A DNA stretch of 64,000 nt from Methylocella sp. (GTDB lineage: Bacteria; Pseudomonadota; Alphaproteobacteria; Rhizobiales; Beijerinckiaceae): NCBI GenBank assembly GCA_037200525.1, contig JBBCGG010000001.1, positions 397,526 through 461,525 of the forward strand, in the 5' to 3' direction. The position numbers were made by a program, and so were the translations under genes. Below are positions 10,396 to 47,207 of this stretch, piece after piece (position 1 is the first letter of the stretch; every line of letters begins with the position of its first letter). Under the pieces are notes generated by a model. That model made no database searches. It was not told the origin of the DNA and saw only the letters and a list, made by a program, of their open reading frames with translations.

Positions 10396-11997
10396 ATGAG
10401 CCCCATGGTAGTGCCTGGCTCCAAGCTCCCCGACGACGTTGATGCGCTCAAGGCCATGGTGTTGGCCATGACTGAAAAAGCGGCTCGCGCGGAAGCTCTT
10501 GAAGCCGAAGTTGCCGATCTCAAAGCCTTGAATGCGAGCGCCGACGAACGCATCGCGCGACTGACCTCCATCCTCAAGGCATTGGAACGGGCAAGGTTCG
10601 GGCGCCGCTCCGAGAAGCTTGGCTCGAAAGCTCTTGATGACGAACAGAGTGCCTTCGTCTTCGACGAGATTGAAACGGGGATCGGAGCCATCCAGGCCGA
10701 ACTCGACAAGCGGCCCAGTCCCGATAAGGCCAAACGAGCCGCACGTCCCCGCAAAGGTTTTGCCGCCCATCTCGAGCGGCTCGAAATCGTCATCGAACCG
10801 GACACTCTTCCCGAGAATGAAGGCAAACAGAAGATCCTGATCGGCGAAGATGTCTCCGAGCGGCTCGATGTCACGCCGGCCAAGTTCCGCGTCATCGTCA
10901 CGCGCCGGCCTAAATACGCATTCAAGAATGAGGATGGTGTCATCCAGGCTCCAGCGCCGGCCCATATCATCGAGGGCGGCGTTCCGACGGAAGCTCTCCT
11001 GGCGCTTATTGCCGTTTCCAAATATGCCGATGGCCTGCCGCTTTACCGGCAAGAGGCCATCTACACGCGCGACAAGGTGGAACTCAATCGCGCCCTGATG
11101 GCCCAATGGATGGGCCGGCTCGGGTTTGAACTTGAGATCCTCTCTGAACACGTCCTCACCCGGATCAAACAGGCGGAAAGAATCTTCGCCGACGAAACGA
11201 CCTTGCCGACCTTGGCGCCCGGTTCCGGCAGCACAAAGACAGCCTATCTCTGGGCCTATGCGAGAGACGATCGCCCCTTTGGCGGCAGCGGCCCGCCGAT
11301 GGTTGCCTATCGCTTCGAAGATAGCCGGTCTGGCGATTGTGTCGCCCGTCATCTCGGTGGTTATAGGGGCATTCTGCAGGTCGACGGATATACGGCCTAC
11401 AATCGCCTCGCGAGGCCAGACCGCGGCAATGACGCCGTCACGCTCGCGGGATGTTGGAGCCATGTCCGGAGACGATTTTACGAACTGCACGTCAATGGCA
11501 GCTCCGAGCTTGCCACGGCTACGATTGAACGCATGACCCATCTATGGGAGGTCGAGGAAAACGTCCGGGGCAAAGAGCCAGAAGTGCGCGCTGCGGCCCG
11601 GCAAGAAACTGCGGTGGCGATCGTCGCTGATCTGTTCAGGCTTTGGCAAGATGCGCTCCCACGTATCTCCGGCAAGTCTAAGCTCGCCGAGGCGATACGT
11701 TACGCCATCTCACGCCGGGCGACGCTCGAACGCTTCCTGAATGATGGCCGCATCGAGATCGACTCCAACATCGTAGAGCGTGCAATCCGGCCGCAAACAA
11801 TCACACGAAAAAACTCACTCTTCGCCGGCAGCGATGGTGGAGGCCGTACTTGGGCATCCATAGCCACATTGCTGCAAACTGCAAAAATGAACGACATCGA
11901 TCCTCAGGCCTGGCTCACCCAGACACTCGAGCGCGTCGCAAACGGCTGGCCCAATGCCGAAATCGATGCCCTCATGCCCTGGAAATACGCCGCCTGA
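10396..11997 (+). CDS. tnpC: IS66 transposase TnpC
   Basis: This 533-residue IS66 transposase has an N-terminal coiled coil with a zipper (about residues 15-65), a zinc-finger-like region, and the DDE domain. The acidic residues are visible in FADETTL, QVDGYTAYNR and the later NIVERAIRP segment, and the usual KNSLFAGSDGG motif and C-terminal region follow. Length is normal. The element appears complete and potentially active. Confidence 0.93.
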   Translation: MSPMVVPGSKLPDDVDALKAMVLAMTEKAARAEALEAEVADLKALNASADERIARLTSILKALERARFGRRSEKLGSKALDDEQSAFVFDEIETGIGAIQAELDKRPSPDKAKRAARPRKGFAAHLERLEIVIEPDTLPENEGKQKILIGEDVSERLDVTPAKFRVIVTRRPKYAFKNEDGVIQAPAPAHIIEGGVPTEALLALIAVSKYADGLPLYRQEAIYTRDKVELNRALMAQWMGRLGFELEILSEHVLTRIKQAERIFADETTLPTLAPGSGSTKTAYLWAYARDDRPFGGSGPPMVAYRFEDSRSGDCVARHLGGYRGILQVDGYTAYNRLARPDRGNDAVTLAGCWSHVRRRFYELHVNGSSELATATIERMTHLWEVEENVRGKEPEVRAAARQETAVAIVADLFRLWQDALPRISGKSKLAEAIRYAISRRATLERFLNDGRIEIDSNIVERAIRPQTITRKNSLFAGSDGGGRTWASIATLLQTAKMNDIDPQAWLTQTLERVANGWPNAEIDALMPWKYAA

Positions 11998-36373: not shown

Positions 36374-36583
36374 CGTCATCCCATGGATCGCAGGCGGATT
36401 TAGCCGCTTTTCATTCGCTGATTGACATTCCCCAGCCATCCGACCACGCTGCCTCTAAAGTCAAGAAACGTACTGCTTTTCCGCAGATCTCCTGACTGCC
36501 TCGGTTCAGACAGGCGCCCCGGCATGAAGGCCGCCTGCGATCGATCCCCGCCCGCGCGGCGCCACAGATTCCGGAGCATAGCG

Positions 36584-37726
36584 ATGCGTCTTTCGATGTT
36601 CGCCCCCGCCCCGAGGCTGGGTTTTGTCGCGGCTCCCGCCTTCATCATTCTTATCCTAGCCGCAACGCTTGCCGAAACCCTGGCGGCGGATCTGGCCCCG
36701 ACGCGCGTCGGGGTCGTGACGGCAGCCAAAGAGCCCATCAATCCCGCCAAGGAGTTTGTCGGCCGCATCGAGGCTGTGGAGCGCGTTAGCGTGCGCGCCC
36801 GCGTCACAGGCTTCTTGCAGGAGGTCCTGTTCAAGGAAGGCGATATCGTCAAGGAAGGGGCGCAGCTTTATCGCATCGAGTCGGAGCCCTTCGAGGCCGC
36901 GGTGCAGCAGGCCCAGGGCGCGCTCGTCAAGGCGCAGGGGCAGGCGGCGAACGCCAAGACTCAGCTCGATCGCGCTGAAACGCTGTTGAAAAGCCAATCC
37001 GGATCGGTCGCCGTGCGCGACCAGAGGCTCGCCGAAGAGCAAACGGCGAAGGGCGACGTCCTCGTCGCTGAAGCAAATCTCCAGACCGCGAAGATCAACC
37101 TTGGCTATACCGAGATCACGGCGCCGATTGCGGGCATGATCGGCCGCACGAGCGTCACTAAAGGCAATGTGGTCGGGCCAGATAGCGGCGTTCTGACGAC
37201 GATCGTCAGCCAGGATCCCATGTATGTCACGGTGCCTGTCAGCCAGCGCGAGTTCCTTCAGTTGAAAGGCGACGAGCGCCAATCCGCGAGCGCGGCGTTA
37301 ACGGTCCATCTCCGCTTTTCTGACGGCTCAGCCTATGAGTTTCCCGGCCGAATCAACTTTATCGACGTCTCGGTGGACAAGGCGACCGATGCCGTTCTGG
37401 TGCGGGCGAGCGTGCCCAACCCCCAGGGACTCCTGATCGACGGCCAGCTGGTCAAGGTCGCCATTCAGGGCGATGAGCCGGAAGAAAAGGTGGTGGTCCC
37501 GCAAGCGGCCCTCATCGCCGATCAGCAAGGCGTCTATGTCTTCGTCGTCGAGGATGGCAAGGCCATTGTCCGTCGCCTGAAGCTCGGCGGCGAGAGAGGC
37601 GCCGACGTCATCGTCGAGTCGGGGCTCAACGGCGGCGAGCAGGTCATCGTCGAAGGCATGGAGGCCTTGCGTCCCGGCGCGCCGGTGATTGCGTCGCCGG
37701 TTCCAAAGTCCCCCGGCCGGAGCTGA
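36584..37726 (+). CDS. RND efflux periplasmic adaptor (AcrA/MexE family)
   Basis: This 380-residue adaptor has an N-terminal signal or anchor segment, the lipoyl half (GRIEAVERVSVRARVTGFL), a coiled-coil hairpin (residues about 100-160), then the barrel (YTEITAPIAGMIGR) and membrane-proximal domains. The ATG at 36584 has a GGAG ribosome-binding site; a frame extending to 36422 has no recognisable leader. It ends 3 bp before the RND pump gene. No outer-membrane channel gene is in the operon. Confidence 0.9.
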   Translation: MRLSMFAPAPRLGFVAAPAFIILILAATLAETLAADLAPTRVGVVTAAKEPINPAKEFVGRIEAVERVSVRARVTGFLQEVLFKEGDIVKEGAQLYRIESEPFEAAVQQAQGALVKAQGQAANAKTQLDRAETLLKSQSGSVAVRDQRLAEEQTAKGDVLVAEANLQTAKINLGYTEITAPIAGMIGRTSVTKGNVVGPDSGVLTTIVSQDPMYVTVPVSQREFLQLKGDERQSASAALTVHLRFSDGSAYEFPGRINFIDVSVDKATDAVLVRASVPNPQGLLIDGQLVKVAIQGDEPEEKVVVPQAALIADQQGVYVFVVEDGKAIVRRLKLGGERGADVIVESGLNGGEQVIVEGMEALRPGAPVIASPVPKSPGRS

Positions 37727-37729
37727 TCC

Positions 37730-40700
37730 ATGATCTCCTCGGTATTCGTCGATCGGCCGAGACTCGCAATCGTCATCGCGCTGGTGACTGTCGTCGCCGG
37801 ATTGGTTTCATTGCTGGCGATCCCCATCGCGCAATATCCGGACATCGTCCCACCGCAGGTCTCGGTCACGACATCTTACCCCGGCGCCTCCGCCAGCGTG
37901 GTCGAATCGACAGTTGCGCAGCCGCTCGAAAGCCAGGTCGTCGGCGTCGACAAAGCGATCTACATGAAGAGCGTCAGCGGCGACGACGGCAGCTATTCGC
38001 TGCTCGTCTCCTTCGAACTTGGCACAAATCCCGACATCAATACCGTCAACGTCAACAACCGGGTGCAGACCGCGCTTTCCAAGCTGCCCGAGGACGTCCA
38101 GCGCCAGGGCGTCAACGTCAAGAAGCAATCCTCCGCCCTGCTCGGCGTCATCGCCCTCTATTCGCCGAAGCGCACCCATGATGAGCTGTTCATCTCCAAT
38201 TATACGACGATAAACCTCCTCGACGACATCAGGAGCACCGCGGGCGTCGGCGACGCCAAGCTGTTCGCCGCGCAGGACTACGCCATCAGGGTCTGGGTGC
38301 AGACCGATCGCCTGACCGGGCTTGGCCTCACCTCGGCCGACATCATCAAGGCGGTCAGGAGCCAGAATGTGCAGGCAGCGGTCGGGCGCATTGGCGCGCG
38401 GCCGATATCCGATGACCAGCAGCTGCAGCTCAACATCCAGACCAAGGGGCGGCTGGCGTCGGTCGCGGACTTCGAGAAAATCATCGTCCGCACCAATCCT
38501 GACGGCTCTGTGCTACGCCTCTCCGACGTCGCTCGGCTTGAGCTCGGCGCGTCGAACCTTGACCGCGCGACGCGCCTAAACGGCGCCCCGGCGACGCTGA
38601 TTGGCGTCTATCAGTCGCCCGGCGCCAACGCGCTGCAGACGCTCACCGCGGTCAAAGCCAAGCTGGCCGAGGCGCAGAAAAGCTTTCCCGACGACCTCGA
38701 GTGGAAGGTTACCTACGACCCGACCACCTTTGTTTCCGCCACCATCAAAGTGGTCGAGCATACGCTCATCGAGGCCTTCGTCCTCGTCGTGCTCGTGGTC
38801 TTCCTCTTCCTCGGCAATCTGCGGGCGACCTTGATCCCGACGATTGCGGTGCCGGTAAGTCTGATCGGCACTTTCGTGGTCCTGAACGCGATCGGCTATT
38901 CCGCCAACACCGTCTCGCTGCTAGCCATAGTGCTGGCGATCGGCATCGTCGTCGACGACGCCATCGTCGTGGTCGAGGCGGTCGAGGCCAAGATGGAGAG
39001 CCATCCTGAGCTTTCGCCGGCTGAGGCGACCAAGATCGCGATGGGCGAGATCACCGCGCCAATCATCGCGATCACCTTGGTGCTGCTTTCGGTCTTCGTT
39101 CCCGTCGCGTTCATTCCGGGCATCACCGGCGAATTGTTCCGACAGTTCGCCGTCACCGTCGCGGTCTCGATGTTTCTTTCTGCCATCAACGCGCTGACTC
39201 TGTCGCCGGCGCTATGCGCGATCCTTTTGAAGCCGCACCACGGACCGCGGCGTGGCCCCATCGGCATGGTCATGCGCGGCATCGATCATGTGCGGGACGC
39301 CTATGGCGCCGTCGTGGCGCGTCTCGTGCGGATCTCCGTCATTGGCCTTGTTATGGTTGCGGCGTCGGTTTTCGGCATCCTCGCCCTCAACAAAATCACG
39401 CCGACAGGTTTCTTGCCGGAAGAGGACCAGGGCGCGTTCTTCGTTGTGGTTCAACTGCCCGACGCCGCCTCGATCGGCCGCACCAGCGACGCCATCGAAG
39501 AGGTCGAGACTATTCTCAAACAGGAGCCCGCAATCGCCGACTATTCGTCGATCGTCGGACTGAACTTCATCGACAATTATTCGCAGCCCAACGCCGCATT
39601 CATCATCGTTTCGCTGAAACCCTTCGACGAGCGAAAGGACGCGGCCGATGGAGCGCCCGCCCTCATTGCGCGATTGGGCCAAAAACTTGCGTCCGTGCGA
39701 GGCGCGCGCGCAATTCCTCTCGCGCCGCCGCCAATCATCGGACTCGGCACCGGCGGCGGCTTCAGTTATGTGCTGCGCGCCCTGGGGAGCAGCGATCCGA
39801 AGGCGCTATCGCAGGTCCTGCGCGGTCTGTTGATCGCCGCCAATCAAGACCCGAAGCTCTCGCGCGTCTTTAGCACTTTCTCGGCCAGCAACCCTTCGAT
39901 CTATCTCGATATCGACCGCGACAAGGCGCAGATTTTGGGCGTCGACATCAGCGACGTCTTCCAGGCGCTGCAAACCTCGCTCGGGGGCATCTATATAAAC
40001 GACGTCAATTTGTTCGGCAGAACCTGGCAGGTTCAGGCGCAGGCCGAATCCAGCGACCGCAAGTCGATCGACGACATCAATCGCATCAACGTCCGCAGCA
40101 AAGACGGTAAGATGATCGCGCTGCGCAGCCTCGTCGAAACCAAAGTCGTCGTCGGTCCGCAAGCGCTGATCCGCTACAATAATCGCCTCGCGGTGACGGT
40201 GCAGGGCTCGCCAGCGCCGGGCGTTTCTTCGGGCCAGGCGCTAAACGCCATGGAGAGCGTCGCGGCGAAATCGCTCCCGAGCGGTTATCGCGGCGAATGG
40301 ACCGATATTTCCTACCAAGAGAAGCGCGCCGAGGGAAAAACGGCGATCATCCTTGCTTTTGCGGTGCTGTTCGCCTTTCTCTTCCTCGTCGCTCTCTATG
40401 AGAGCTGGACGATCCCCGTGCCCGTGCTTCTTTCAGTCACCATCGGCATCCTTGGCGCCTTCGCGGCAATCGTCGTCGCCCATCTGACGCTCGATCTCTA
40501 TGCCCAGATCGGCATGATCGTGCTGATCGGCCTTGCAGCCAAGAATGGCATCCTCATCGTCGAATTCGCCAAAGAGCGTCGCGAACATGGCGCGCCTCTG
40601 CTGGAGGCTGCAACGGAAGGCGCAAGGCTGCGGTTCCGGCCGGTGATGATGACATCCTTCGCCTTCATTCTCGGCCTTACGCCGCTGGTGTTTGGCACAG

Positions 40701-40882
40701 GAGCCGCCATGCTGGCGCGCCGGAACGTCTCGACGCCGGTGTTTGGCGGCATGATCGCCGCATCCTTCATCGGCATATTTGCAATTCCCGCTCTTTACGT
40801 GATGTTCCAGGCGCTGCGCGAGAGGGTGAAAGGCGGCGGCGGCAAGAAAAACGCCGCAAACCCGCCGACGCCCGCGGAATAA
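37730..40882 (+). CDS. RND multidrug efflux pump (HAE1 family)
   Basis: This 1,050-residue inner-membrane proton antiporter resembles MexF/AcrB-type pumps. Twelve spans, two large periplasmic loops and the proton-relay aspartates in TM4 ([12 protein letters not shown]) are visible. The N-terminus ([15 protein letters not shown]) and the switch-loop region look normal. It is made with the preceding adaptor. No regulator is adjacent. Substrates are not deducible. Confidence 0.93.
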
Positions 40883-40958: not shown

Positions 40959-41432
40959 TCAGGCGCCGGAAAGACTCTTGCAGATCACCTTCGACGCCAA
41001 CTCGTCGGTCAAACGATGGACAGCGGCCGACTGCTCCGGCGAGAGGCTTTGATCCATCTGGTTCATCGCCGAGCCAAAGAGCAGCGCATGTCTCGCCCGC
41101 TCGGCTGCTTCGTCGAGGCGTTCGCCTGCCGCCAAACGTCTTTCATAATCCTGGGTCAGGCGCTCGAGCCGCAGCATGGAGCTGGCGAAATCGCGCCATG
41201 CGGAGTCCTGGTTCGGATCAATTCGCGCCAAGCGACGGACTTCTTCGAGCCGCCCCGCAAGATCTCCCGGCGCGGGAACGCCCGCCGCCTGATCGAAGCT
41301 GCTTCGCACCACGCCGAATCCGCTTGAGCCGCCAAAATCCCCCGCAATGCCGACAATGACGCCTATCCCCGCGACGGCGAGCGCAGCCGCAAAGCGCGGC
41401 GCCTTGAAGATACCGAACGCACGTAATCCCAT
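40959..41432 (-). CDS. Small exported or anchored protein with a Spy/CpxP-like tail
   Basis: From the ATG at 41432 the product is 157 residues: an N-terminal hydrophobic segment (FAAALAVAGIGVIVGIAG) and a helical C-terminal part rich in Glu, Arg and Leu, including SPEQSAAVHRLTDEL, reminiscent of the LTxxQ repeat of Spy/CpxP chaperones. The similarity is loose. A longer frame to 41525 is possible. It is divergent from the J-domain gene at 41717. Confidence 0.5.
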   Translation of the reverse strand: MGLRAFGIFKAPRFAAALAVAGIGVIVGIAGDFGGSSGFGVVRSSFDQAAGVPAPGDLAGRLEEVRRLARIDPNQDSAWRDFASSMLRLERLTQDYERRLAAGERLDEAAERARHALLFGSAMNQMDQSLSPEQSAAVHRLTDELASKVICKSLSGA

Positions 41433-41716
41433 GATGGCGCCGCTCGACCAAATCTCTCGGAGGTTGCAATTATAGCAAGTTGCAAATCGCCGCTTGCTGA
41501 AATCTATTAGCGACATATGCAGCAAAGCATTGCTCTTTTCAATGAGCGCCCTTACCCTTGCTTGGCTCGATTCGGGTTTTTCAATTATTGCTTTTCATTA
41601 GCCGGACCTATTGCGCTCGGAATCATCGTTACAGCGCACCTCGGGTCGGTTTTCTCACAGCCGTTGGTCGGGCCTTGTTCGCGGCGTCTCGCGTTGGAGA
41701 GGGGATATCCCCGCCT

Positions 41717-42451
41717 ATGAATCTCGGGATGATCCTTAGTTCGGCTGCGCTCGGCATCTCCCTTGCCGTCAGCGCTTTCAAGCTGGTTGACTGGCTGGTT
41801 CATTCCGACCCGCGCACGCTCGCCCGCGCAGCCCGCTGGTCGCTTTTCGTTGCGGCTGCGGCCTCTGGTCCGATCCTGATCATCCTGCTGCTGTATCAGC
41901 AGTGGACGATCGCCATGGCGTTCGGCGCCGCCATGCTGGCTGCGCCAGCGGTGATCAACTGGCGGGTTTTCATTCCGCGCCGGACGTTTCGACCGATGTG
42001 GAGCGAAAGCTCCCCGCTCGACGAAATGCGCGGAGATGTCGGCCAACCGCCGCCAGACCCGGAGCTCGTGCGCCGGGCCGCCATCGTGCTCGAAGATTAT
42101 CTGATCCACGCCGGACACCCCGAAGTCAGCGCGCGAATCGACGGCGGGCGGCGCCCGCTCGCGGAGGAGAGCAGGTCGCTTCGGAGCGAGGGGCCAACGG
42201 TTGTCGAGGAGGCGCTGGAGATCCTGGGGCTCGATGCGGGAGCCACGGCGACGGCGGTTCGCGCCGCCCACCGCAGGCTGATGCAACTTGTCCACCCCGA
42301 TCGCGGCGGCTCGAACTATCTCGCCACAAAGATCAACTGGGCGAAGGATGTGCTGCTCGCGGAAGCCGCGCGAAAGCCGAGGGCGGCGACCCGCAGGACG
42401 CGGGATCCGTCAAAGCGAGCAGCTAGCGGGAATACAGGCAAAGACACATAA
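41717..42451 (+). CDS. Membrane J-domain protein (DnaJ/TIM14-like)
   Basis: The 244-residue protein has two or three N-terminal spans (residues 5-100), a linker, and a C-terminal J-domain ([14 protein letters not shown] through [14 protein letters not shown]) with the HPD motif intact. J-domains stimulate a Hsp70 partner; a C-terminal J-domain on a membrane anchor is the TIM14/PAM18 and DjlA-like layout. It may recruit DnaK to the membrane. The ATG at 41717 is followed directly by the first span; the upstream frame is not convincing. It lies 114 bp upstream of the NosZ-like operon. Confidence 0.75.
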
Positions 42452-42565: not shown

Positions 42566-44416
42566 ATGAACGAGTTCAACAAGCCTGCGAAGGTCAGCGA
42601 CGCGGAAAAAGTCGATATCAATCTTCCTCTGCCCCCTGAAAGGGAGAGCCTGTCCGCTAACGTAGGCCAAACGCAGGTCGAGGCCTTCATCGCCCGCCGC
42701 TCCGAAGTCGCCAAGTCGGATCATGAAGCGTTCCAGGACTATCTGCGTGAGAAGCAGGCGCGGGCCCTTGCTGCACGAGTGGAGACAGCCCCGGCGATCG
42801 AGAAGAAGAAGACAAAGATCACGCGTCGCAATATCTTCAAGGCGGGGGCTGCGACAGCAATCGTCGGGGAAGCGGCGGCGCTCGGCTATCATGCGGCGCA
42901 AAGCGGCGCTCTCGGCGCGCTTGGCGTCGGCGGCGCGAGCCAAGGGCAAGCCGCGAGCGCCGCGATTCCCAGCCACGCGCAGCAGCAGCCGATCGCTCGC
43001 GAATTGATCGATTCGAGAGCGGATTTTGGCGGACGAAGCCTCGGCAAATGGGTGGCCGTGCTGCCAACCAAACTCGGCGGCGGAGTCTATGCGCTCGACC
43101 TCAATACCAATAGGGTGCTGGCCTCGATCTGGTATTGGAACTACGGCGACTTCAATCCGATCGCGCATCATCTCTGCGCGTTCCCCAGCGCCGACCCCTA
43201 CAACAGCTTCGAATTCATCAATAGCACGCAGGGCGGCAAAAATTCGCTGATCTACGGCATCCCGACCAATATCACTGAGCCCGCGCCCGGCTTCAACATC
43301 TACCGCGTCCGTTATGACGGGGCGCAGATGCAGTTGATGGAAAACGTGTCTGAGGCGACTGGCCTTGGCCTTGGCGTGCACGTCACGATTAATCCGAAAG
43401 ACGCTCAGTCCTATTTCGTGACCGACGGGCAAAAAGACATCGCCGCCTGCTTCGATCGGACCACCTCGCGGGTCAAAGCGGCGCTGAAGTTCGATTGGAA
43501 GTCGAATTCAAGCGAGTTGGCGCGCGCCTGGCAGGACGGCGGCGTTCTGAAGATCTCGAAGATCTATCCGAACGGCGCCAGCGGCAAATATGACTACCTC
43601 GGCACCAAGGGGCAGAAGATCGATTGGGAGATGGTGCCCATGGGAGAGCTGTTCGTCGAGGAAGGCACCTTACCTGGCGATGATCCCATGAGCCTCACCG
43701 GCGCCGATGGAACGATCTGGCATCCGACCGGACGATGGGCCGCGACCGTCGTTCGCCTCTGCGGCGGAATAGCCATCCTCGACGCCGAGAACAATTTTGA
43801 CCCGGTCGCCTTTCTCCAGTTCAACGCCAATTCGCAAGATCAGTACGCAGTCGTGAAAGTCGCCGACGATCACTGGGAGGTGACCTTCGACAAGATCCAT
43901 TCGCCGGGGCACGAGATCGGCTTTTCGCCGGACGGCCGCTTTCTCTGCATGATGAACAACCTGCGGGAAAACAACTGCTCGGTGTTCTCCACCGTCGACG
44001 CCGATCCGCGCAATTGGAAGAAGATCGCTCACGTCGAGGACCCCCTATGGAGAGGCAAGTACCCCAATCCGTTCCATATGGTGTTTTCGCTCGACTCCAA
44101 AAAGCTGTATCTGTCGGTGCTGCATCCATCGCCCGCGGCCAGCGGCATCATGGTGGTCGACACTGATACGTGGACCATCAAAAAGGAGATCCAGGGCATC
44201 GGCCCGGATCTGCAGACTCCGGCCATCACCTATGACGGCAAATATGTCATCGTCCCCTTCAGCGGCTTCCAGCGGCTGTCGAGCGGAATCGCGGTGATCG
44301 AGACTGAAACTGACAGTCTGATCGGCATTCTTCCGAGTTCGGGAGGACACCATGACTGCGTGATTGTCCCGACCGAATTGGCGCACATGAAGCACACCCG
44401 CTCGTGCACGTTGTAA
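42566..44416 (+). CDS. Tat-exported NosZ-like beta-propeller lacking the CuA domain
   Basis: The 616-residue protein has a long N-terminal leader with a twin-arginine motif (TRRNIF, Arg87-Arg88) and a hydrophobic stretch, then a beta-propeller resembling the catalytic domain of nitrous-oxide reductase. Histidines sit where NosZ has its seven CuZ ligands: His201-His202 (IAHHL), His272, His386 (IWHPTG), His449 (SPGHEIGFSPDG), His504 (NPFHMVFS) and His596 (GHHDCVIV, compare PHDC in NosZ). The C-terminal CuA cupredoxin of true NosZ is missing; the chain ends about 20 residues after the last histidine. AGGAGG before ATG 42566 fixes the start. The alignment is from memory. N2O reduction is not established. 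Confidence 0.7.
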   Translation: MNEFNKPAKVSDAEKVDINLPLPPERESLSANVGQTQVEAFIARRSEVAKSDHEAFQDYLREKQARALAARVETAPAIEKKKTKITRRNIFKAGAATAIVGEAAALGYHAAQSGALGALGVGGASQGQAASAAIPSHAQQQPIARELIDSRADFGGRSLGKWVAVLPTKLGGGVYALDLNTNRVLASIWYWNYGDFNPIAHHLCAFPSADPYNSFEFINSTQGGKNSLIYGIPTNITEPAPGFNIYRVRYDGAQMQLMENVSEATGLGLGVHVTINPKDAQSYFVTDGQKDIAACFDRTTSRVKAALKFDWKSNSSELARAWQDGGVLKISKIYPNGASGKYDYLGTKGQKIDWEMVPMGELFVEEGTLPGDDPMSLTGADGTIWHPTGRWAATVVRLCGGIAILDAENNFDPVAFLQFNANSQDQYAVVKVADDHWEVTFDKIHSPGHEIGFSPDGRFLCMMNNLRENNCSVFSTVDADPRNWKKIAHVEDPLWRGKYPNPFHMVFSLDSKKLYLSVLHPSPAASGIMVVDTDTWTIKKEIQGIGPDLQTPAITYDGKYVIVPFSGFQRLSSGIAVIETETDSLIGILPSSGGHHDCVIVPTELAHMKHTRSCTL

Positions 44417-45645
44417 CGCCCCGCGTTGCTCCCCGCTGGCTGCTGCTCAGCGTCGCCCTGCAGAATCTCGGCCGCCGCAAGACGCGCACGAGCCTGCTCG
44501 TGGCTGCGGTCGCCGTCAGTTGCGCCATTGTCTTCGCGGGTTCGGTCACGATGAGCAGCATCGAGACCAGCATGGAGATCGGATTCAGCCGGCTCGGCGC
44601 CGATCTGATGCTCGTCTCGCAGGATGCGCTGACAAACATCGCCGTCGCTCTTCTGACGGTGGAGCCAACCGACCGGACTGTCGATGCCGACCTCCTGGAG
44701 CGCGCCAACGTCGCCGGCATCGGCAAGGCCGCGCCCCAGCGGGTTTTTCGCACCGTGCAGTCGGGTTTGGGCGGCCACGAAGAGATGGCGGACCTCATCG
44801 GATTTGATCCGCTGCGCGACTTCACCATCCAGCCCTGGATCTCGGAGCGGCTCGGTCGCGCGATGGAACCGGACGACGTCATCCTCGGCGCCGCCCACAA
44901 CCTGCCTCTTGGCTCCGAAATCACCATCTTCGGCAAGCCCTTCCACGTCTTCGCCCGGCTCGGCGGCACGGGGGCCGGTACGCACGAGCGTGGCTATTTT
45001 ATGCAGTCATCGAGCCTGCTGGCTCTTGCGCCGGCGATCCGCGAACGCACTGGCGGCGTCCCGCCGATGCTCGAGCCCGGCAAGGTGACGGGGTTTCTCG
45101 TCGAACTGGCGCCGGGGGCCAGCGAACTGCAGGCGCGTTTTGCTCTGCTGTCCAAGCTCTCAGGCATCAAGGTGGTTACCGGCGGATCCTTACTCACCGG
45201 CATCCGCCAAGGGCTCACCGCCCTGCTCGCCGGCACGCTTGGTCTTGTCGCGTTGATGTTCGCAAGCACGGCCGTAATGGTGAGCATATTGTTCTCTGCC
45301 ATCATCTCCGAGCGCCGGAGCGAACTCGGCTTGCTGAAGGCCATCGGCGCCAGACGGTCGCAAATCGTCGGAATGATGGTGATCGAGGCGGTGGCGGCGA
45401 CCGGCGCGGGCGGCGCGATCGGCGTATTGCTCGGCATGCTTTTGCTGCGGCTGTTCGAGCGATCGCTCGTTTATCACCTGACGCAACTTGGAATTCCGTT
45501 TCTTTGGCTTGACCGCGCGAGCGCCGCGCTGGTCGCCCTCGCCTGCGTTGCAGCCGCCGCGCTCATTGGAGCCGTCGGCGCGCTGGCCCCGGCCTGGCGC
45601 GCCAGCCGCCATGAGACCTATGATCTTATCCGCGGCGAGGGCTGA
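44404..45645 (+). CDS. FtsX/MacB-type ABC permease
   Basis: The 413-residue permease has one N-terminal span (TSLLVAAVAVSCAIVFAG), a periplasmic domain of about 190 residues, and three C-terminal spans with the FtsX block (ERRSELGLLKAIGARRSQI). MacB/LolC-type permeases move or gate lipoproteins and envelope substrates mechanically and do not transport through a channel. The GTG start overlaps the NosZ-like stop by 13 bp, so coupling is tight. With the LolD-type ATPase next, it stands where NosY stands in nos clusters, but NosY is a different family. Confidence 0.88.
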   Translation: MHVVTPRVAPRWLLLSVALQNLGRRKTRTSLLVAAVAVSCAIVFAGSVTMSSIETSMEIGFSRLGADLMLVSQDALTNIAVALLTVEPTDRTVDADLLERANVAGIGKAAPQRVFRTVQSGLGGHEEMADLIGFDPLRDFTIQPWISERLGRAMEPDDVILGAAHNLPLGSEITIFGKPFHVFARLGGTGAGTHERGYFMQSSSLLALAPAIRERTGGVPPMLEPGKVTGFLVELAPGASELQARFALLSKLSGIKVVTGGSLLTGIRQGLTALLAGTLGLVALMFASTAVMVSILFSAIISERRSELGLLKAIGARRSQIVGMMVIEAVAATGAGGAIGVLLGMLLLRLFERSLVYHLTQLGIPFLWLDRASAALVALACVAAAALIGAVGALAPAWRASRHETYDLIRGEG

Positions 45646-45648
45646 GCC

Positions 45649-46341
45649 GTGCTGAACTGTCTCGCCCTCACCAAAACCTATCGCACGGACCGAGGCTTCG
45701 TGGACGCCGTGCGAGAAGTCGATCTCGAAGTGGGGGCCGGCCGATATGCGGCGATCATTGGCCGTTCGGGCTCGGGTAAATCCTCCCTCCTTGCAATGAT
45801 CGGCGGCCTGAGCCGGCCGACAACGGGCAAGATTTTAATCGAAGGGGCCGATATCTGGTCGCTTGGCGACGACGCGCTGGCGCATTTTCGCAATCGCCGG
45901 ATCGGCTACATCTTCCAGTTCGCAAGCCTGCTGCCGACGCTCCGGGCGATCGACAATGTCGCCTTGCCGCTTCTCCTCGATCGCTGCGGGAAGAAAGATG
46001 ACCCATATGCACGCGCCATCAAGCTCCTCACTGAGGTCGGACTTGGCTCCCATCTCGACGCCTACCCCTCCGAAATGTCGGCGGGCGAGCAGCGGCGGAC
46101 GGCGATCGCGCGGGCGTTGATCAATGACCCGATCCTGCTGCTGGCCGACGAACCAACGTCGGATCTCGACGAGCAGACCGAGCGCGAAATCATGGAGCTT
46201 TTGTTGGGGGTCAACCGCGAGCGGAAAACGACCTTGATCCTCGTGACCCACAATCTCGCGTTAGCCGCTGAGGCCGAACAGGTCGTGCAGATCGCCGACG
46301 GCGTGATCGCCATGAGCCGCGCGAGGAAAGCCGCATCGTGA
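45649..46341 (+). CDS. LolD/MacB-type ABC ATPase
   Basis: This 230-residue ATPase has Walker A (GRSGSGKS), a Q-loop in YIFQFAS, a signature in which SAGEQRR replaces the standard SGGQQQR, Walker B (LLLADEPTSD) and the H-loop histidine in LVTHN. It starts with GTG three bases after the permease stop and overlaps the next gene by four. It powers the FtsX-type permease. The altered signature still has the essential Ser and Gly. Confidence 0.9.
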   Translation: MLNCLALTKTYRTDRGFVDAVREVDLEVGAGRYAAIIGRSGSGKSSLLAMIGGLSRPTTGKILIEGADIWSLGDDALAHFRNRRIGYIFQFASLLPTLRAIDNVALPLLLDRCGKKDDPYARAIKLLTEVGLGSHLDAYPSEMSAGEQRRTAIARALINDPILLLADEPTSDLDEQTEREIMELLLGVNRERKTTLILVTHNLALAAEAEQVVQIADGVIAMSRARKAAS

Positions 46342-47207
46342 CGCGGCCGCCTAAACTCCCGGATCTCGGCCAGCTTACGGATGCGCAAAAGGACGAACTT
46401 ATCGTCAGCCTCTGGGAGACCCTCGTCGCGCTCGATGGCTCTGATCGGGCGCCGGCCTCCGCCGCGGCGGCGCCTCAGCCCGCGTTCGCGGCGTCGTCAG
46501 CCTCTGTGGACTCCTTGCGCGCCCAAATCCGCGACGCCGCTCCATCCCGGCGCGCGCTCGCTTCATCGGCGGTCTCCAAAGGCATCGGACGCGGGCTCGA
46601 CTTCCTCGATTCGCGGCTCTTGCAGATCTTCCTGCTTGTGATCGGGGTGTGGTTCCTCGCCGACTTTGGCGTCGGCTGGAGCCAGCGACGCGCCCTCGCC
46701 GAGCGCGGCAAGGCGGATCTCGCGCTTCGCAACGCGGCGTTCTCCAATCTTTACGTGGAATTGACGCGAGTCGCATACGAGCCGGACGGCAAGTCCTACC
46801 GGGCGACGATCTACATGCAGAATGCAAATCCCGCGGCGCCGCTCTATGTGATGCTCAATCCGCCCCGCGTCTTCGTCCAATCGGGCCTGACCTGGCGAGA
46901 AACGCCGTCGCAGGCTCCCGCCGGGAGCGCCTGGGGCGTGGTCAAGCTCGACGGCGGGCGCGAATACTCGCTGACGTTCCAGGCCGACGTGCAGGACTGG
47001 TCACAGTTGATTCCGGGTTACATGCACGTGCTGATTCAGAGCGACATGCTGATCAGCCAAAGCAGCGAGCCCAAGGACGACATCGTCGAGCGCAACAATC
47101 GTTTTTACGTCTACCTGAAACCGCAGGGCGCGGACGACGCATGGATCAAAAGCCGCTCGAATTTCCCCGGCCTCCCGCCGATATTCATTCCGATGCCGCC
47201 GCATTAG
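46338..47207 (+). CDS. Single-span membrane protein of the NosZ-like operon, unknown
   Basis: I do not recognise a family. The 289-residue product has a cytoplasmic N-terminus (LPDLGQLTDAQKDELIVSLWE), an Ala/Pro-rich linker, one membrane span (about residues 93-113) and a 170-residue periplasmic domain with beta-rich segments (YRATIYMQNANPAAPLYVML, YSLTFQADVQDW). No cysteine or clear metal motif is seen. The GTG start overlaps the ATPase stop. As the last of four coupled genes it may assist assembly or docking of the NosZ-like protein. Confidence 0.68.
   Translation: MTRPPKLPDLGQLTDAQKDELIVSLWETLVALDGSDRAPASAAAAPQPAFAASSASVDSLRAQIRDAAPSRRALASSAVSKGIGRGLDFLDSRLLQIFLLVIGVWFLADFGVGWSQRRALAERGKADLALRNAAFSNLYVELTRVAYEPDGKSYRATIYMQNANPAAPLYVMLNPPRVFVQSGLTWRETPSQAPAGSAWGVVKLDGGREYSLTFQADVQDWSQLIPGYMHVLIQSDMLISQSSEPKDDIVERNNRFYVYLKPQGADDAWIKSRSNFPGLPPIFIPMPPH

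Follow-up and report, generated by a model that had tools for sequence, protein, structure and literature searches.

We report that a propeller gene of Methylocella, lying in a 64,000-nucleotide stretch of DNA (the window, meaning this whole analysed stretch), encodes a protein that, by sequence homology, belongs to the thiocyanate dehydrogenase (TcDH) family. It carries a glutamine, Gln550, where TcDH has the active-site residue His482, and shares this feature with a clade that we call Q-type. With moderate confidence, we read the Q-type protein as a periplasmic copper oxidoreductase forming a distinct Gln-type subfamily of TcDH, with an altered site and altered chemistry, and its substrate or role has probably changed.

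Table 1. Positions in the window of the gene, the residues discussed and the neighbouring genes.
Feature	Positions	Strand	Basis or detail
Membrane protein with J-like domain near C-terminus, start uncertain	41558..42451	+	Pfam DnaJ E 2.9e-5, below cut-off
TcDH-family propeller gene, Q-type, 616 aa	42566..44416	+	N-terminal arm, RR motif 87-88, propeller about 158-616
Arm ahead of RR motif, about residues 35-70	42668..42775	+	Alignments
His386 codon, counted as CuZ ligand in the original prediction	43721..43723	+	40-row alignment
His520 codon (TcDH position 453)	44123..44125	+	40-row alignment
Gln550 codon (TcDH His482)	44213..44215	+	40-row alignment
FtsX/MacB-type ABC permease, start codon uncertain	44404..45645	+	Pfam FtsX E 3.6e-16
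LolD-like ABC ATPase	45649..46341	+	Pfam/NCBIfam, loci comparison
Membrane-anchored accessory protein, one hydrophobic helix (89-107), C-terminus -MPPH	46338..47207	+	Loci comparison

Results

A propeller of the thiocyanate dehydrogenase family

The open reading frame is a genuine gene, with GGAGG directly 5' of its ATG, and is present as a single copy in the window's genome (one 5.24-Mb contig). It is under purifying selection, as four pairwise comparisons give a dN/dS of ~0.08 against Methylocella tundrae, 0.09 against Chelatococcus, ~0.08 against Ancylobacter and 0.17 against Reyranella. Searching solved structures with phmmer yielded nine strong matches (E about 5e-146 to 3e-157). Four of them are named thiocyanate dehydrogenase (5oex, 5f75, 6sji and 6uwe), and the other five, titled only 'Twin-arginine translocation signal domain-containing protein' (8q9x, 8yu5, 8p3l, 8p3m and 8bpn), we take to be TcDH entries too, the 8Q9X chain being presumably that of Pelomicrobium. 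Homology extends over the full propeller (5oex, E 2.9e-147 over residues 158-615; 8q9x, E 1.6e-156 over 158-614), with 49% identity to the TcDH of T. paradoxus (5F75/5OEX) and 52% to the 8Q9X chain. When a ten-row profile (A2) was run against solved structures, TcDH supplied the only strong matches, and the next one was hydrazine synthase beta, over ~70 positions at E 5e-6. According to the accessible text of PMC9456337, TcDH forms homodimers, its seven-bladed propellers hold three coppers in a central tunnel, and it converts thiocyanate to cyanate and sulfur and passes the electrons to a cytochrome c.

The original prediction had seen in this protein a relative of nitrous-oxide reductase (NosZ), with equivalents of all seven CuZ ligands but no CuA domain, and knew of no description of such a form. 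Two of its observations hold: histidines are present at 201, 202, 272, 386, 449, 504 and 596, and the chain stops 20 residues past the last HHD motif (H596), with no CuA domain. The solved TcDH chains match the enzyme to within 2 residues of their own ends, so that they too are without a further C-terminal domain and a CuA-less ending is normal for the family. A CuA-less propeller of such form is therefore not new, being known as thiocyanate dehydrogenase.

The family comparison does not lead to NosZ. Neither Pfam nor NCBIfam matched the enzyme to NosZ at any E value up to 1, and comparing a TcDH family profile with 20 NosZ sequences gave a non-significant result (probability 1.4%, E 0.038). 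Before their CuA part, these 20 sequences share eight histidines without exception, of which seven are presumably the CuZ ligands. In the non-significant alignment only three TcDH/NosZ pairs coincide, H381/H326, H437/H380 and H528/H492, so the other correspondences are by order only; register is lost over the first half, and NosZ His431 falls in an insert after the stretch holding position 482. The three TcDH residues are H449, H504 and H596 of our enzyme, and it is there that the predicted NosZ-like local contexts survive. The likeness thus amounts to three histidines with matching contexts and others in similar order, as opposed to the lack of significant sequence similarity and of a CuA domain and the Gln at one site. 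In the window's genome no NosZ exceeded the cut-off, and two short matches covered the CuA end of the model. We rejected a NosZ origin on the missing family match, the strong TcDH matches and the non-significant profile comparison. A CuA-less nitrous-oxide reductase could claim the three late-chain histidines and their (non-significant) contexts, but it is very improbable given a TcDH family membership, the lack of any NosZ family match, the lack of a NosZ over the cut-off in this genome and the replacement of His482. What remains of the original idea is a copper-type propeller that would need a separate electron partner, in keeping with a TcDH-like site and no CuA.

A twin-arginine motif, TRRNIFK, occupies residues 86-92, and its RR is invariant in a 20-row alignment. 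The Pfam TAT model, on the other hand, scores E 0.25, far under its cut-off. RR stands at position 87, compared with about 34 reported for Thioalkalivibrio TcDH. In the arm ahead of it, R44, D52, F56, Y59, L60 and K63 are invariant in 20 QI rows, and the QI arm finds no aligned counterpart in the QII and L040 rows compared. The same 20 rows also have an invariant Glu after RR, E102 (42869-42871), an odd residue within a Tat hydrophobic region.

Glutamine at one active-site position

The active-site list given in the accessible part of PMC6504805 has 13 residues: K103, H135, H136, Q156, H206, E288, D314, H381, H437, H482, H528, D529 and R544. Their equivalents in the window enzyme are K169, H201, H202, Q222, H272, E355, D381, H449, H504, Q550, H596, D597 and R612. 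We compared these sites in 40 rows, namely 28 of clade QI, 4 of clade QII, 6 Cus-linked TcDH homologues (L040 and L059-L063, such as have been reported for Thiohalobacter and Guyparkeria) and 2 solved chains. The rows exclude L017, which duplicates the record of G013/L043, L021-L030, which are short pieces of copies already present in longer loci, and PDB chains that are engineered or repeated. Twelve of the 13 residues are invariant in 40/40 rows. The remaining one, His482, is Gln in 32/32 Q-type rows and His in the 8 others, in a sample to which the nearest branch contributes two His-type sequences only and in which many QI rows are close kin. The window enzyme accordingly carries 12 of the 13 residues instead of the full set, as it does not share His482 with the TcDH of Thioalkalivibrio paradoxus and the 8Q9X chain, with which it has the Tat motif and the other 12 in common. 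Since Gln550 is common to all 32 clade members compared, a local mutation or sequence error was ruled out.

Position 453 varies in step with 482, being His (His520) in 32/32 Q-type rows, Trp in the two solved chains and Ala in 6/6 Cus-linked rows; Trp452-Trp453 of solved TcDH is Leu-His in the window enzyme. From the propeller topology, our guess is that His520 lies near the copper site. Among solved chains, 6sji and 8yu5 have Gln at the 482 position and 5oex and 8q9x have His; the first two we take to be engineered TcDH mutants. Further, at 25 positions a residue shared by at least 95% of the Q-type rows is absent from every His-type row. With the 13 sites excluded, these Q-specific positions lie close to active-site residues only moderately more often than do other Q-conserved ones (P 0.03, 0.07 and 0.006 for windows of 2, 3 and 4 residues). 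An essential His and an essential Lys of TcDH are described, with no residue number, in the accessible text of PMC9456337, and we infer that this histidine is His482.

His386, counted in the original prediction as a CuZ ligand (tp position 319), is absent from the active-site list in the accessible part of PMC6504805. Both solved reference chains have Asp there, for which reason we rejected it as seventh ligand; one Q-type row has Tyr, and the other 37 of 40 rows have His. The sites aligned with TcDH are instead 201, 202, 272, 449, 504, 550 and 596, and because Gln550 replaces His482 the supposedly full CuZ-type set is incomplete. The same Gln makes another suggestion of the original prediction, a propeller with a new reaction, more likely.

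The residues of the site presumably cluster around copper as they do in TcDH. In the electron-exit route modelled in the accessible text of PMC9456337, K103 and H528 are kept in 40/40 rows, and Y164 is Tyr in 30/32 and Phe in 2/32 Q-type rows; it is Asn in 6/6 Cus-linked rows, so Tyr164 seems dispensable for TcDH in general. These observations bear on whether the protein is an enzyme at all. By losing one catalytic histidine, a TcDH could have become a non-catalytic copper-binding propeller (a sensor, chaperone or store), and both the loss of a listed His in 32/32 Q-type rows and the association of QI with a membrane J-protein fit this. However, an enzyme that no longer worked should have shed further site residues, so the retention of all other 12 in 40/40 rows counts against it, as does the near-complete conservation of the modelled electron-exit residues, and we consider it quite unlikely.

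The Q-type clade

In a maximum-likelihood tree (built without columns 453 and 482, with a midpoint root for drawing only and a long 5oex branch), four groups each fall on one side of a branch: QI, QII, the Cus-linked rows and the two solved chains. QI and QII are joined at support 98/90, with a single His/Gln change on the tree. QI hosts comprise Methylocella, including M. tundrae, Chelatococcus, Ancylobacter, an Aquabacter MAG, and Xanthobacteraceae and Reyranella MAGs, while QII was found in three Methylocella species and one other genus of the same family, so the Q-type branch has been seen so far only in alphaproteobacteria. A TcDH homologue of the alphaproteobacterium Afipia is already in print, as the accessible text of PMC8061750 indicates. 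As for the Gln form, the matches listed for literature on thiocyanate dehydrogenase, copper, methanotrophs and Methylocella included no paper on it, which is not proof of absence.

The gene is common in Methylocella (11/15 genomes searched) and rare beyond it. Counting the window's own genome each time, strong matches were found in 4/397 genomes of the order sample (one of them, G210, His-type), 3/385 of the class sample and 2/398 of the phylum sample. The class of G623 yielded long homologues in 5/369 genomes, every one of them His-type, plus a partial weak match in a sixth. M. tundrae T4 carries a 90%-identical copy, annotated 'hypothetical protein', on plasmid p1. The cassette described below thus sits on a 304-kb plasmid in M. 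tundrae T4 (L048) but, in the window's genome, on its one contig of 5.24 Mb, so it may be mobile.

The Cus-linked homologues belong to the same family and have the 12 residues in common with the Q-type, but they keep His482, and identity, measured for L040, is 33-35%. Their loci also differ from those of the Q-type in having a redoxin gene adjoining TcDH and Cus-type RND genes, in SoxB-positive genomes. One of them, L059, contains a short piece of TcDH gene (10598-10909) downstream of the full copy; it resembles a 52-residue TcDH fragment reported for Guyparkeria, there upstream, in the accessible part of PMC6504805.

Neighbouring genes

The permease gene overlaps the end of the enzyme gene, and an FtsX permease was called in 28/31 loci. 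It is missing from L014, which stops at a contig end, from L039, where no call was made, and from the His-type locus L040. All accessory proteins aligned (29/29) end in MPPH. Pfam yields nothing for it up to E 1, and four loci (L017, L036, L037 and L039) encode it as a fusion with the ATPase. Gene calling overlooked both the ATPase and the accessory gene in L005 and L064, but translated search recovered the -MPPH protein from these genomes. Across 40 genomes searched in this way (30 of Q-type, 6 of His-type and 4 genus members that yielded no TcDH gene; L013 and L014 not in the set, which also served for the J-protein, cyanase, SoxB and redoxin counts), the -MPPH protein was present in 30/30 Q-type genomes and 0/10 others, the match in G007 being partial and containing a stop. 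In the L015 genome (G1484), J-protein and -MPPH matches fall on two contigs, C91 and C136, and a second cassette is likely there.

Upstream of the enzyme gene, the J-protein has a long match in every QI genome but that of Ancylobacter sp. Lp-2, L008 (25/26), and some of these matches, several in number, read through a stop; the other 14 genomes have J-domain-sized matches only, or none. That the J-protein contacts the QI arm is a guess. Adjoining its gene is one for an LTXXQ-like small protein (40959-41525, minus strand; Pfam E 0.019, under the cut-off), with a homologue in 7/31 loci. RND-type efflux pump genes lie further upstream (36422-40882, plus strand). They were rejected as part of the system: besides the window, L045 (Q-type) and L040 are the only ones of the 31 loci with an RND protein nearby, at low identity.

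An ATPase and a permease beside a copper propeller recall NosDFY, an ATPase plus permease next to NosZ that serves it, and the subunits are of the LolD and FtsX types found in LolCDE-type systems. The cassette differs from both in combining an FtsX/MacB-type permease with the single-helix -MPPH protein. In the accessible text of PMC5328954 and PMC5744179, two permease/ATPase pairs come after the TcDH gene of Thioalkalivibrio, along with a permease that has one helix at its N-terminus and three at its C-terminus and a hypothetical protein with a single N-terminal helix, and these genes are up on thiocyanate. Adjacent ABC genes, as those papers give them, and a single-helix protein are hence common to these operons and the Q-type loci, and the ABC cassette may belong to the whole branch and not to the Gln form. 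By contrast, fcc, copCD and tatA, reported at Thioalkalivibrio TcDH, were not seen among the Q-type neighbours scanned.

Metabolic context

The sulfur-oxidising context of described TcDHs, taken from the SoxB marker, is not that of Q-type genomes. SoxB exceeded the cut-off in 6/6 His-type but 1/30 Q-type genomes, the single Q-type SoxB being split over two contigs. The window's genome has two partial SoxB matches below the cut-off; such matches occur in several Q-type genomes and likewise in 10/14 control genomes. A redoxin-fold gene lies by TcDH in 6/6 His-type genomes, and 0/30 Q-type genomes have it; redoxin is proposed as sulfur acceptor in the accessible part of PMC6504805. From these redoxin and SoxB counts, the Q-type does not look part of lithotrophic thiocyanate oxidation. 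Cyanase is encoded in 15/30 Q-type genomes, the window's included, so that cyanate use is possible in half of them, but also in 3/6 His-type genomes and 3/4 genus members with no TcDH gene found, and in 0/4 QII; given this lack of association we rejected a link to cyanase.

Thiocyanate may still be a nitrogen source for Q-type hosts. The protein could then be a working thiocyanate dehydrogenase for nitrogen supply or detoxification, in which Gln permits the same reaction, perhaps at lower pH. The 12 retained active-site residues, the cyanase of half the Q-type genomes and ABC genes of the kind described for Thioalkalivibrio in the accessible text of PMC5328954 and PMC5744179 all agree with it. 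It is nonetheless rather unlikely: His482 stands on the active-site list in PMC6504805 and an essential, unnumbered His is described in PMC9456337, as far as the accessible parts of both go, redoxin is absent and SoxB nearly absent from Q-type genomes, and cyanase does not track the gene.

Discussion

We favour a Gln-type subfamily of periplasmic copper oxidoreductases with altered chemistry, for which the following course can be proposed. The enzyme would be exported to the periplasm by Tat, and its copper would be inserted with the help of the FtsX-LolD ATPase and the -MPPH protein, by analogy with what NosDFY does for NosZ. A TcDH-like copper site would be held by six histidines and Asp381 and ringed by Glu355, Lys169, Gln222, Asp597 and Arg612. 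There, a small and probably anionic or pseudohalide-like substrate would undergo a two-electron oxidation, and the electrons would leave via Lys169/His596 and Tyr230 to a soluble cytochrome c. Gln at the His482 position together with His at 453 would imply acid-base chemistry or copper geometry unlike that of TcDH, and through it a different substrate, pH range or product.

More tentatively, the Q-type may be a copper enzyme class of its own that arose from TcDH, with a rearranged site in which His520 perhaps stands in for the lost histidine, a new small-molecule substrate and an undescribed FtsX-LolD-MPPH machine for copper loading. Its hosts would be alphaproteobacteria, facultative methanotrophs among them, that lack the markers of sulfur oxidation tested here. 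We hold this possible as a whole, though with less conviction than a subfamily within TcDH.

A natural clade with Gln at the position of His482, and with the rest of the site under selection, is a ready experiment on the role of that histidine. To our knowledge, three-copper propellers are known from one reaction, and the Q-type clade offers a probe of whether this fold supports others. The cassette, in turn, makes copper delivery to such sites testable by gene deletion, and Methylocella tundrae T4, which we take to be a methanotroph, is an example of a host for that question, with a sequenced plasmid that carries the cassette.
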